NCBI GenBank assembly: GCA_009703925.1
Contig: WLFD01000008.1
Location: 1-34,728, forward strand
Reading direction: 5' to 3'
From: Actinomycetota bacterium
GTDB taxonomy: Bacteria; Actinomycetota; Acidimicrobiia; Acidimicrobiales; Acidimicrobilacustridaceae
Length of the DNA stretch: 34,728 nt
Under the pieces are notes generated by a model. That model did not search any database, had not been told where the DNA came from, and worked only from the letters and a program-made list of their open reading frames with translations. Below are positions 3,135 to 7,509 of the stretch, piece after piece. Within the stretch, counting starts at the first letter, position 1; every line of letters begins with the position of its first letter. The position numbers were made by a program, and so were the translations under genes.

Positions 3135-4310
3135 ATGATCGTTTTCACCTTCCCCGGTCAGGGGTCGCAGAAGCCCGGAATGGGTGAGCAATGGCGGGAT
3201 CATCCGTCGTGGGAACTGGTCGACGAGGCATCGGCGGTTCTCGGGCGCGATCTCGGGCAACTACTCCTGCACACCGAAGCGGATGAACTCACCCGCACCG
3301 ACAACGCCCAACTGTCGACGTTCCTCACCAGCCTGATCGTTCTCGATGCCGTCGAACGTCTCGGGGTCGAACCCGCCGCCGCCGCCGGTCACAGCCTCGG
3401 CGAGTACACCGCCCTCGTCTCGATGGGAGCGATGTCCTTCGAGGACGGACTCCGACTCGTCGCCGAACGGGGATCGGCGATGTTGGCGGCCACGACCGAA
3501 CGGGTCGGAACGATGGCCGCAGTTCTCGGTCTCGATGACGATGATGTCGAGATCGCATGTTCCCGCGTCAGCAGTGATGTGTGGGTGGCCAATTACAACG
3601 CTCCCGGGCAGGTCGTCATCGCCGGTTCCCCCGAAGCCGTCGCCGAATGCAGTGACGTCGCCAAGGAACTCGGAGCGAAGAAGGTCATGCCGATGGCCGT
3701 CAGCGGGGCGTTCCACACCCCCTTCATGGCGCCCGCACGCGAACGACTCCGAGCCGCTATCGCCACCGCCGATTTCCGCGAGGCCGACCTGCCGGTCTAC
3801 GCAAATGTCGATGCCCGCCCCCACACCTCGGCCAGCGAATGGGTCGGCCTTCTGTCGTCCCAACTGTGCAGTCCGGTCCGTTGGCGCCAGACACTCCACA
3901 ACCTCGGCGACGCCGGCGGAACCGTGTTCGTAGAACTCGGACCAGGCAGCGTCCTGACCGGGATGGCCAAGCGGACGGTTACCGGAGCCACGACGCTCTC
4001 GGTCAGCACCCCCAACGATCTCGACAAACTGATCACGGCGCTCGCCACCCCGTCGGCCAGCGTCTCCGGCGTCCACGAAGGCGAGCATCTGTTCGCCACC
4101 GAGCGGATGGTGGTCAGCCCCGCCGCCGGAGTCTTCACTCCTGCTGCCGGCATCGAGGCCGGATCCACCCTCGCCCCGGGAACGGTTCTCGGCGCCGTGG
4201 GTGATGTCGATGTTCGCTCTCCATTCGATGGCATCGTGGTGGGCATGCTCGCCGTCGAAGGCGAGCGGGTAACGACAAGCCAGCCCATCGCCTGGCTCCG
4301 TACCGCGTGA
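3135..4310 (+). CDS. fabD: Malonyl-CoA:ACP transacylase with C-terminal biotinyl/lipoyl-like domain
   Basis: FabD moves malonyl from CoA to acyl carrier protein for fatty acid elongation. Residues 1 to about 300 form the transferase: GQGSQ at 8-12, nucleophile Ser87 in GHSLG, Arg112 in AERGSAML and catalytic His194 in GAFHTPF. Usual FabD proteins are near 310 residues; this one has 391. The extra part (about 320-391) resembles a biotinyl/lipoyl 'hammerhead': VVSPAAGVF, then RSPFDGIVVGMLAVEGERVTTSQPIAWL. At the position of the modified Lys (normally in EMK) the sequence is AVGDVDVRS, with no Lys, so the domain is probably not biotinylated. The start is ATG 3135, since MIVFTFPGQGSQ matches the family N-terminus. 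It is the first gene of the fab operon; its TGA overlaps an in-frame fabH GTG. Confidence 0.93.
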   Translation: MIVFTFPGQGSQKPGMGEQWRDHPSWELVDEASAVLGRDLGQLLLHTEADELTRTDNAQLSTFLTSLIVLDAVERLGVEPAAAAGHSLGEYTALVSMGAMSFEDGLRLVAERGSAMLAATTERVGTMAAVLGLDDDDVEIACSRVSSDVWVANYNAPGQVVIAGSPEAVAECSDVAKELGAKKVMPMAVSGAFHTPFMAPARERLRAAIATADFREADLPVYANVDARPHTSASEWVGLLSSQLCSPVRWRQTLHNLGDAGGTVFVELGPGSVLTGMAKRTVTGATTLSVSTPNDLDKLITALATPSASVSGVHEGEHLFATERMVVSPAAGVFTPAAGIEAGSTLAPGTVLGAVGDVDVRSPFDGIVVGMLAVEGERVTTSQPIAWLRTA

Positions 4311-4333
4311 ACGACTCACCCCGAGGGAAACCC

Positions 4334-5305
4334 ATGCCCGCTTCAACCACTCCCGCCCGGCGGGGCGCAACCATCTCCGGATGGGGCACGGCCCTACCCC
4401 CCCATGTCGTCACGAACGCCGATTTCGAGGCGCGACTCGACACCACCGACGAGTGGATCACCGAGCGCACCGGAATCCGCGAGCGTCGTCACGGAAGTTC
4501 GACGGCAGCACTCGCCATCGAAGCGGGCCGCGCCGCACTCGACATGGCTGGATTGACCGGTGACGACATCGATCTCGTTCTGCTGGCCACCACCAGTCCG
4601 GACTACCAGATCCCTTCGACGGCATCGCAGGTTCAGGACGAACTCGGCATCCGCGGCGGAGCGTGCGACATCAACGCCGCGTGTTCCGGATTCGTCTACG
4701 GCCTCGTGCAAGCGCACGGACTGATCGCAATGGGTCTGAACCGTGTCCTTCTCATCGGAGCCGAAACACTCAGTCGACTCACCGATCAGGAAGATCGAAA
4801 CACCGCGATCCTCTTCGGTGATGGCGCCGGCGCAGTGGTTCTCGAGGCCACCGACGATGCAGGACAGTTGCTCGCCTTCGACCTCGGATCCGACGGGTCC
4901 GCCCGGAAACTGCTCGATGCCCCCATCGGCGGCTACATGCAGATGAACGGCAAAGAGGTTTTCCGTCGGGCCGTCACCGTCATGGTGCAATCGGCCAACA
5001 CATCACTCGCTTCGGCCGGAATCTCCGCTGATGATCTCGCCCTCGTCGTTCCGCACCAGGCAAACATCCGGATCATCGAAGCCGCCTGCTCGCGTCTGAA
5101 TGTCGACGCAGATCGGGTCGCCACCGTTCTGGCAACAACGGGGAACACCTCCTCGGCTTCGATTCCCCTCGCCCTCGTCGACGCCCTTGACAGCGGGCGC
5201 GTCAAGAAGGGCGACCATGTACTTCTCGTCGGCTTCGGTGCCGGCATGAGTTGGGCCAGTGCCGTCATCCGTTGGACGGGTCATCTTCCGGAGGTTGCGT
5301 CATGA
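4334..5305 (+). CDS. fabH: 3-oxoacyl-ACP synthase III (initiating condensing enzyme)
   Basis: FabH condenses an acyl-CoA starter with malonyl-ACP to begin type II fatty acid synthesis. The 323-residue protein carries the full thiolase-fold triad: Cys117 in DINAACSGF, His241 in PHQANIRI and Asn271 in TGNTSSASIP. TTDEWITERTGIRERR near residues 37-52 and the FGAGMSWASA C-terminus are typical. I chose ATG 4334, preceded by GAGGG at a good distance. A GTG at 4307 that overlaps the fabD stop would add nine residues. The stop overlaps the fabG start as ATGA. Confidence 0.96.
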   Translation: MPASTTPARRGATISGWGTALPPHVVTNADFEARLDTTDEWITERTGIRERRHGSSTAALAIEAGRAALDMAGLTGDDIDLVLLATTSPDYQIPSTASQVQDELGIRGGACDINAACSGFVYGLVQAHGLIAMGLNRVLLIGAETLSRLTDQEDRNTAILFGDGAGAVVLEATDDAGQLLAFDLGSDGSARKLLDAPIGGYMQMNGKEVFRRAVTVMVQSANTSLASAGISADDLALVVPHQANIRIIEAACSRLNVDADRVATVLATTGNTSSASIPLALVDALDSGRVKKGDHVLLVGFGAGMSWASAVIRWTGHLPEVAS

Positions 5306-6021
5306 GTCGTGTTGTTCTTGTCACCGGAGCCAACCGCGGAATCGGGCTGGCATGTGCATCAGCATTCGTCGCCAACGGCGACAAGGTCGCCGTCACCTAC
5401 CGGAGCGAACTTCCTCCTGCATCGCTCGCCGACAACGTTCTGTGCGTGAAATGCGACGTCACGGATGCCGCTCAGGTCGAAGCCGCTTTCCTGGAGATCG
5501 AGGAGAAACTCGGCCCGGTTGAAGTCCTTGTCTCCAACGCCGGAATGACGGTCGACAAACTTGCCATCCGCATGTCGGACGATGATTTCGCATCGGTCCT
5601 CGACGCCAACCTCGTCGGCGGATTCCGTGTGGCCAAGCGCGCCGTGCAGAAAATGATGCGTGCCCGTCAGGGTCGGATCATCTTCATCGGCTCCGTCGTC
5701 GGCGCCACCGGTCAGGCCGGTCAGGCCAACTACGCCGCATCCAAAGCCGGACTGATCGGTCTCGCCCGATCGCTCGCCCGCGAGTTCGCCTCGCGCAACA
5801 TCACCGTGAATGTCGTGAGTCCCGGCCCCGTCGCCACCGACATGTTCGCAGCCGTTTCCGACGATGCGCGAACTGCAATCACCGACGCCGTTCCCCTCGG
5901 TCGACTCGCAGAGCCGTCCGAAATCGCGGCTGCCGTCACCTTCCTCGCGTCCGATCCCGCCGCCTTCATCACCGGTGCGGTTCTACCGGTCGACGGAGGA
6001 CTCGGCATGGGCGCGATCTAG
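5302..6021 (+). CDS. fabG: 3-oxoacyl-ACP reductase
   Basis: FabG is the NADPH-dependent reductase of the elongation cycle, a 239-residue short-chain dehydrogenase. It shows the cofactor motif TGANRGIG (8-15), the NAG motif (79-81), catalytic Ser131, Tyr144 and Lys148 (YAASK), and the C-terminal ITGAVLPVDGG. The start ATG 5302 overlaps the fabH stop (ATGA), and GGAGG lies just upstream, so translation is coupled. Membership of the fab operon makes ketoacyl-ACP reduction the likely role rather than another SDR activity. Confidence 0.95.
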   Translation: MSRVVLVTGANRGIGLACASAFVANGDKVAVTYRSELPPASLADNVLCVKCDVTDAAQVEAAFLEIEEKLGPVEVLVSNAGMTVDKLAIRMSDDDFASVLDANLVGGFRVAKRAVQKMMRARQGRIIFIGSVVGATGQAGQANYAASKAGLIGLARSLAREFASRNITVNVVSPGPVATDMFAAVSDDARTAITDAVPLGRLAEPSEIAAAVTFLASDPAAFITGAVLPVDGGLGMGAI

Positions 6022-6057
6022 CACCTTCAGAGTCTCAGCCACCACCATGCCCCCGAC

Positions 6058-6063
6058 TAGATT
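6058..6063 (+). promoter_or_regulatory. Candidate internal -10 box before acpP
   Basis: TAGATT lies 28 bases before the acpP start, in the only sizeable gap (70 bp) inside the fab operon. A start near 6070 would leave a short leader containing the AGGAG ribosome binding site. Extra acyl carrier protein output from an internal promoter is plausible but unproven. Confidence 0.35.
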
Positions 6064-6091
6064 GGGTGCACCACTTAGCAAGGAGTTCCCA

Positions 6092-6328
6092 GTGAGCGAC
6101 GAACAGTTCGAGCAGTTCAAGGCCTGTGCGGTAGAGGTTCTCGCCGTCAGCGCCGATCAGGTCACCATGGAAGCCCGCTTCGGCGACGATCTCGATGCCG
6201 ACAGTCTCGACCTTGTCGAACTCGTCATGAAACTCGAAGAGGTCTTCGACGTCACCGTCGACGAATCGGAACTCGAGAACATCGAGACCGTCGGTCAGGC
6301 CTACAACCTGGTCATCTCCAAGAAGTGA
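6092..6328 (+). CDS. acpP: Acyl carrier protein
   Basis: The 78-residue acidic protein carries growing acyl chains on a 4'-phosphopantetheine arm. The attachment Ser38 lies in DADSLDLVELVMKLEE, the canonical helix II motif. The start is GTG 6092, set by AGGAG at 6081-6085. Longer reading in this frame would run back into fabG and has no support. The gene sits between fabG and fabF; its stop codon overlaps the fabF ATG by one base (TGATG). Confidence 0.96.
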   Translation: MSDEQFEQFKACAVEVLAVSADQVTMEARFGDDLDADSLDLVELVMKLEEVFDVTVDESELENIETVGQAYNLVISKK

Positions 6329-7509
6329 TGGATCGCCGCAGGGTCGCCATCACCGGCATCGGTGTCGTCAGCCCTTGCGGTATCGGCACCGAAGCTTTCT
6401 GGCAGGGGCTGCTGTCGGCCCCGCCGGAAGGCCTCCGCCACATCAATGATTTCGACGCGGAGAAGTACTTCGCGAATCCGAAAGAAGCACGTCGCACCGA
6501 CCGCTTCGCACAGTTCGCTCTCGCCGCCGCCGAAGAAGCACTCGCGGGCGCCGGCGACATCGGCGGCGATCCCGCCCGCAAGGGCGTGTGGGTCGGGACC
6601 GGCATCGGCGGTCTGACCACTCTCGAATCACAGGTTGTCGTCCACGAGCACAAGGGTCCCCGTCGGGTCTCGCCGTTCCTCGTTCCGATGCTGATGGCCA
6701 ATGCCGCTGCTGCCGCCATCTCGATGAAGTACGGCTTCCAGGGTCCGTGCGAGAACACCTGCACGGCATGCGCTGCCGGAACCCAATCGCTCGGCAACGC
6801 CTACCGGATGATCCAGTACGGCCGATGCGATGTCGTCATCTCCGGCTCCTCGGAAGCGGCGATGACACCCACGAGCATCGCCGGTTTCTCGAACATGACG
6901 GCGATGTCGGGCGAGTGCCTCTCCCGGCCCTTCGACCGCGACCGCGACGGTTTCGTCCTCGCCGAAGGCTCAGGCATCCTCGTCCTCGAAGAGCTCGAAT
7001 TCGCACGCGCCCGCGGTGCCAACATCATCGGCGAACTCATGGGCGCGGCATCAAATGCCGATGCCCATCACATCACCGCTCCCGCCCCCGGTGGCGTCGG
7101 TGCAATCGCGTGCATGCGTCTGGCCATCGAGGACGCCGGCCTGACTCCCGGTGACATCACCCACGTCAACGCCCATGGCACCTCGACCCCGCTCAATGAT
7201 GCCGCCGAGGCTGCGGCGATCATGGAGGTCTTCGGGCCGAACGGTCCGCCGGTGACATCCATCAAGGGAGTCACCGGACATTCCCTCGGTGCGGCCGGTG
7301 CCCTCGAGGCGGTTGCCATCATCCTCGGTATGCAGAAGGGCCTCATCCCTCCGACGGCCGGCTACGTCAACGTCGATCCGGACATGGCACCGATCGACCT
7401 CGTCGTCGGTCAGGCCCGCCCCTGGACTCCCGGTCCCGTGCTGTCCAACAGTTTCGGGTTCGGCGGCCACAACGGCTGCGTCGTCATCGGGCCACCTCCC
7501 GTCGACTGA
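6328..7509 (+). CDS. fabF: 3-oxoacyl-ACP synthase II (elongating condensing enzyme)
   Basis: FabF condenses acyl-ACP with malonyl-ACP in each elongation cycle. The 393-residue protein has the active-site Cys148 (NTCTACAAGTQS), the first active His in HVNAHGTSTPLND, the second in GHSLGAAGALEAV and the C-terminal NSFGFGGHNG. The start is ATG 6328 (or GTG 6325), coupled to the acpP stop. The last 26 bases overlap the end of the convergent ogt gene, so no terminator fits between them. FabI/FabK-type enoyl reductase is not in the window; FabZ is encoded in the facing operon. Confidence 0.96.
   Translation: MDRRRVAITGIGVVSPCGIGTEAFWQGLLSAPPEGLRHINDFDAEKYFANPKEARRTDRFAQFALAAAEEALAGAGDIGGDPARKGVWVGTGIGGLTTLESQVVVHEHKGPRRVSPFLVPMLMANAAAAAISMKYGFQGPCENTCTACAAGTQSLGNAYRMIQYGRCDVVISGSSEAAMTPTSIAGFSNMTAMSGECLSRPFDRDRDGFVLAEGSGILVLEELEFARARGANIIGELMGAASNADAHHITAPAPGGVGAIACMRLAIEDAGLTPGDITHVNAHGTSTPLNDAAEAAAIMEVFGPNGPPVTSIKGVTGHSLGAAGALEAVAIILGMQKGLIPPTAGYVNVDPDMAPIDLVVGQARPWTPGPVLSNSFGFGGHNGCVVIGPPPVD

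Follow-up and report, generated by a model that had tools for sequence, protein, structure and literature searches.

Within the window (the whole stretch of DNA analysed, 34,728 nucleotides), a forward-strand open reading frame begins with ATG at 3135, ends with its stop codon at 4308-4310 and encodes a 391-residue FabD with a C-terminal biotinyl-like domain that has no biotinyl lysine, an assignment drawing on the ORF (3135-4310), on the family model TIGR00128 and on relatives. The draft genome carrying the window is 2.5 Mb in size, and its nearest named relatives, Microthrixaceae and other Acidimicrobiales MAGs, many of them apparently from freshwater, place it in the Acidimicrobiia (Actinomycetota). 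We assigned residues 1-304 (3135-4046, forward strand) to the malonyl transferase domain from the TIGR00128 score, the alignment and the AlphaFold2 model. TIGR00128 (fabD) matched residues 2-281 with 285.2 bits, above its curated cut-off of 260.9, the Pfam Acyl_transf_1 match covered residues 2-284, and S87, R112, H194 and Q243 were unchanged in the alignment across 53 fused relatives; we take S87 and H194 to be the catalytic serine and histidine of FabD, and R112 and Q243 to be its malonyl-binding arginine and glutamine. By sequence, the N-terminal ~300 residues form a genuine malonyl transferase. They are followed by a flexible linker, residues 305-319 (4047-4091, forward strand), delimited with the AlphaFold2 model and dN/dS, and by a predicted barrel-sandwich domain resembling biotin carboxyl carrier protein (BCCP), residues 320-391 (4092-4307, forward strand), recognised with AlphaFold2, Foldseek, VIA and alignment. 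The initial annotation's reading of a complete malonyl transferase with an extra tail at this position agrees with the ORF; in starting the domain at 4080 it was right about the tail but too early for the fold, since residues 309-319 are linker (pLDDT <50 and disordered in the full-length model) and the fold sets in at about residue 320 (4092). The conserved GEHLFATER stretch from 4080 forms the lead-in to the barrel-sandwich domain.

Downstream on the forward strand lie fabH (4331-5305; ORF and relatives' gene order), whose start codon is unsettled, the ORF call running from 4307, and the remainder of the type II fatty-acid synthesis (FASII) operon, fabG, acpP and fabF (5302-7509), called from the ORFs, the same order in relatives and the fabF match. 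The window's FabF (6325-7509) scored 445.8 bits against an NCBIfam FabF cut-off of 493.75, and because of this score we regard the FabF of the window's group as divergent. Directly upstream of fabD is a tRNA-Leu (CAA) at 2899-2984; a GIEPARPxGQRILSPPRLPV-like peptide is read through upstream of FabD in four relatives (L107, L113, L119 and L157), and this similarity suggests that the position of the tRNA-Leu is kept in them. Long ORFs upstream of FabD were considered as real extensions of the protein, and unrelated DNA upstream, read through in frame, seems to account for them.

Predicted fold of the tail and the missing lysine

AlphaFold2 modelled the full-length protein (53 sequences) with a mean pLDDT of 93.0, placing six strands at residues 323-389 after the linker, and a model of the tail alone (tail plus 51 relatives) likewise gave a barrel-sandwich, with a mean pLDDT of 90.2 and a core at ~98. 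The top structural match of the tail model was 4hr7_G, E. coli BCCP in the BC-BCCP complex (VIA Z 12.1, rmsd 1.0 over 67 residues), followed by 1bdo, 5gua and 2d5d, while Arabidopsis BCCP1 gave a Z of 11.5; Foldseek and VIA alike ranked biotin carboxyl carrier proteins first. The carrier-like fold that the initial annotation had proposed for the ~70 extra residues is thus what structure prediction returned. Efflux adaptors, weighed as the tail's relatives instead, share the fold, yet BCCP is closer, as the adaptors had similar or lower Z and mostly larger rmsd.

Several library models scored the tail below their thresholds: Pfam Biotin_lipoyl (PF00364) at E 0.004 and 17.4 bits (12.6 for the whole protein; cut-off 22.1), Pfam HlyD_3 (PF13437) at E 0.003 and 18.7 bits (cut-off 22.2), TIGR01730 at 16 bits (cut-off 94.9) and TIGR03309 (YqeB) at E 2e-6 and 27.4 bits (cut-off 220). 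A PF00364 search of the whole genome at E 0.01 returned only the true BCCP and a lipoyl E2, the tail being absent. A profile of the tail built from 18 relatives, however, reached solved BCCPs by sequence alone (P. horikoshii BCCP 2d5d, E 2.6e-5), so that the family likeness suggested earlier failed with the Pfam model and held with the relatives' profile. We conclude from profile and predicted structure that the tail is homologous to biotinyl domains.

In the profile alignment to 2d5d, exactly the four letters AMKM fall in a gap of the tail, and a two-residue Gly-Asp turn (4200-4205, forward strand), identified from that alignment, the DSSP assignment of the model and the sequence, replaces the biotinylation hairpin. 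With the structural matches in agreement and AMKM left unmatched by the alignment, the tail is a biotinyl homologue that has lost the attachment hairpin. The modified lysine, already noted as missing from the window's protein, is likewise absent at the biotinyl column from all 185 unique tails; that column is a gap in 126 and holds mixed residues, mostly Gly, in the others, and the eight tails with a lysine nearby show no pattern. In the stand-alone forms of the domain described below, the hairpin exceeds that of the fused Acidimicrobiales forms by ~5 residues, and turns rich in Gly, Ser and Asn stand where AMKM would be. The single ordinary BCCP in the draft genome is a BC-BCCP chain with an intact EAMKME, and the carboxylase genes found there by family search lie on other contigs than the window's. 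Since an ordinary BCCP with intact AMKM is present, the tail is not the working carrier, and the idea that FabD is fused to an ordinary, biotinylated BCCP was rejected because the lysine is missing and the real BCCP is located elsewhere.

Stand-alone and fused forms of the domain

The domain forms an ORF of its own, ~95 residues long (mostly ~84-118), in other families of the order and class and in several more of the phylum. The usual order at the loci examined was fabD - domain - fabH - fabG - acpP - fabF, the few exceptions being eight loci at which fabG or fabH was not found, the contig ended or the fab genes were unrecognised. The unfused gene lay directly 3' of fabD, and 5' of fabH at every locus where the latter was recognised (77 unfused loci, repeats included). 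Taking the nearest in-frame start to the fabD stop as the stand-alone start, from which true starts may differ, we obtained a median distance of -1 nt to the end of the fabD stop in 46 non-redundant cases; the start overlapped the fabD stop in 27 and lay within 30 nt in 44. The stand-alone gene looks translationally coupled to fabD.

Nearly every genome in the genus has FabD with the tail, mostly at ~80-96% identity, and the close homologues to which the initial annotation had pointed therefore keep it; its framing of the tail as a FabD architecture was right about the fusion to an intact FabD but too narrow, since elsewhere the domain is a separate gene flanked by fabD and fabH, or is absent. 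All 80 loci in the named genome collection were fused. A search of the class (395 genomes, 360 with a FabD-family match) placed the domain at a minimum of 150 sites at E 3.3e-15 or better; weak class and phylum matches (E 1e-4 to 1e-8, ~600-aa frames) are likely ordinary BC-BCCP chains and were excluded from the domain counts. In a tree of 68 FabD domains, the minimum for the fused state is two changes, and a single origin is compatible with the well-supported branches; three fused genes of other families (L231, L248 and L251) were placed far from those of the Acidimicrobiales. Conservation of the tail into distant families led us to reject an accidental extension of fabD or read-through beyond it. 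No relative of the domain was found in viral contigs, and a viral origin was rejected on that ground. Three fused tails (L041, L190 and L193) have long insertions in the loop between strands 2 and 3 and keep the GERV...QP(V/L)AWL end. Three records deposited as 'Bifidobacterium breve' MAGs (L082, L087 and L092) contain FabD-tail fusions whose tails are 81-97% identical to the window's, and are almost certainly mislabelled Acidimicrobiia.

The domain is not universal among such operons. One genome of the same order (G426) keeps the operon with a tail-less FabD and no domain gene, and nine further operons of other families have neither a FabD tail nor the domain gene; because these tail-less FASII operons exist, the domain is an accessory, dispensable for FabD chemistry. 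Separately, in eight Acidimicrobiia genomes 89-99% complete (G062, G031, G035, G036, G055, G380, G420 and G058) we found no acyltransferase/FabD domain and no convincing FabF, G035 having a partial FabF match; the set includes a genus of the window's own family (g12) and the single-contig genome G062, and FASII loss or reliance on outside fatty acids is possible in these organisms.

Proposed function of the domain at FabD

We give about an even chance to the proposal that the tail is an unmodified adaptor that descends from BCCP and acts at FabD. A BCCP-like domain would have lost its biotinylation hairpin and become a non-catalytic docking module at the malonyl-loading step of FASII. Its original or alternative form would be the separate ~95-residue protein encoded between fabD and fabH, and in the window's order and a few other lineages the domain would have become covalently joined to FabD through a short flexible linker. 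The existence of fused and unfused forms of one pair is a classical sign of physical or functional partnership, and gene fusion together with constant fabD adjacency argues that domain and FabD work jointly. It would hold FabD beside a partner: the FabH/ACP pair, the user of malonyl-ACP, or acetyl-CoA carboxylase, which makes malonyl-CoA and would be met by the face that the domain inherited from BCCP. The initial annotation, too, had put forward docking of acetyl-CoA carboxylase or ACP, with malonyl handed over locally. BCCP kinship and the example of plant BADC make the carboxylase a candidate, whereas the operon position points to FabH or ACP instead. Binding of FabD by the stand-alone protein, binding of a second partner and the identity of that partner are points that we infer; no fusion of the domain to other proteins, which could name the partner, was found. 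Contacts of mycobacterial FabD with FabH and further FASII enzymes have been reported (PMC2765072) and make FASII assemblies around FabD plausible.

Alternatively, the domain might bind BC or the BC-BCCP chain and tune the assembly or activity of the carboxylase, FabD being merely an anchor that reports or channels malonyl-CoA. BCCP is the nearest fold, and plant BADC, an AMKL-less BCCP relative, binds both BC and BCCP (PMC11926652); on the other hand, the carboxylase chain here is a BC-BCCP fusion, unlike the heteromeric plant enzyme, and the hairpin region is remodelled, and we consider this regulatory role unlikely. Were carboxylase binding true, bacteria would have in this domain a counterpart of plant BADC, and there would be direct evidence that malonyl-CoA synthesis and use are coupled. 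Quite unlikely, in our judgement, is an appendage serving FabD by itself, for dimerisation, stabilisation or substrate gating, with no second partner. Fusion in a large clade through a short linker, and the separate form's direct adjacency to fabD, would suit such a part, but the ~11-15 disordered residues of the linker suggest that the domain moves freely, the FabDs of relatives manage without the domain, and the solved FabDs among the matches listed have no such part.

A degenerate accB remnant, stranded in the fab operon and being lost, would account for the clear BCCP kinship, the loss of the essential lysine and the several lineages without the domain. A drifting remnant would, however, resemble the linker in dN/dS, and the median over 26 fused genes (genus and family) was 0.39 for the linker, against 0.098 for the tail and 0.093 for FabD; purifying selection acts on the tail as strongly as on FabD. 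The domain also keeps one position across several Actinomycetota families and has family-specific invariant residues, and we hold the remnant explanation to be very improbable. The residues invariant beyond the generic fold consensus are E377, R378 and W387 together with the GEHLFATER lead-in, and these may form a binding face. Although most of this fold family are carriers, a carrier modified or ligand-bound at a residue other than the usual biotin or lipoate lysine is scarcely credible, no single modifiable residue having replaced that lysine.

Returning to the adaptor at FabD, its most far-reaching version would be an undescribed scaffold subunit of Actinomycetota FASII, a biotin-stripped BCCP copy, free or fused, that physically couples acetyl-CoA carboxylase to FabD for local hand-over of malonyl to ACP; stated so fully, the idea is unlikely. 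With fused forms, unfused forms and domain-less relatives to hand, the question is testable with small purified proteins.

Relation to known systems

Few bacterial operons have been studied as thoroughly as the fabD-fabH region, and yet it contains here a conserved, apparently uncharacterised gene that falls below the Pfam Biotin_lipoyl threshold. We found no description of the domain, of its gene or of such a FabD in Pfam, NCBIfam or the open-licence literature (a weak negative), which accords with the initial annotation's impression that FabD with a carrier tail is not a described architecture. What appears new is a family tied to FASII and its fusion to FabD; the fold, and the notion of a BCCP-like helper that has no lysine, were known before. 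Stand-alone members could be misannotated as biotin carboxyl carriers and lead to misleading metabolic reconstructions.

The query shares with known FabDs (TIGR00128; 1mla, 3ezo and 1nm2) the whole catalytic domain and the catalytic residues, but the matches to solved FabDs end at residue ~305 and none among those listed aligns to the tail. The YqeB/EF2563 family (TIGR03309) has a weak sequence match to the tail and a different partner protein. Periplasmic adaptors (HlyD, AcrA, MacA and BesA) are likewise barrel-sandwiches without a modified lysine; compared with BCCP their Z is lower or their rmsd larger, and as parts of membrane efflux systems they have no FASII link. With the BCCP/biotinyl domain itself (AccB; PF00364; 1bdo, 4hr7 and 2d5d) the tail has in common the predicted barrel-sandwich, ~67 residues superposing at 1.0-1.3 Angstrom, and profile-level kinship, whereas it lacks the lysine in an exposed (A/V)MKM hairpin that BCCP requires and is joined to, or encoded beside, FabD rather than a carboxylase. 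A precedent is plant BADC, a relative of BCCP that lacks the AMKL motif and is reported to act as 'glue' in acetyl-CoA carboxylase assembly (PMC11926652). Both are BCCP-like and have lost the biotinylation motif, and BADC is tied to malonyl-CoA supply (PMC11926652); BADCs, however, are plastid subunits of the heteromeric acetyl-CoA carboxylase with a known carboxylase interaction and no FabD link, whereas for the tail the carboxylase is a candidate partner.
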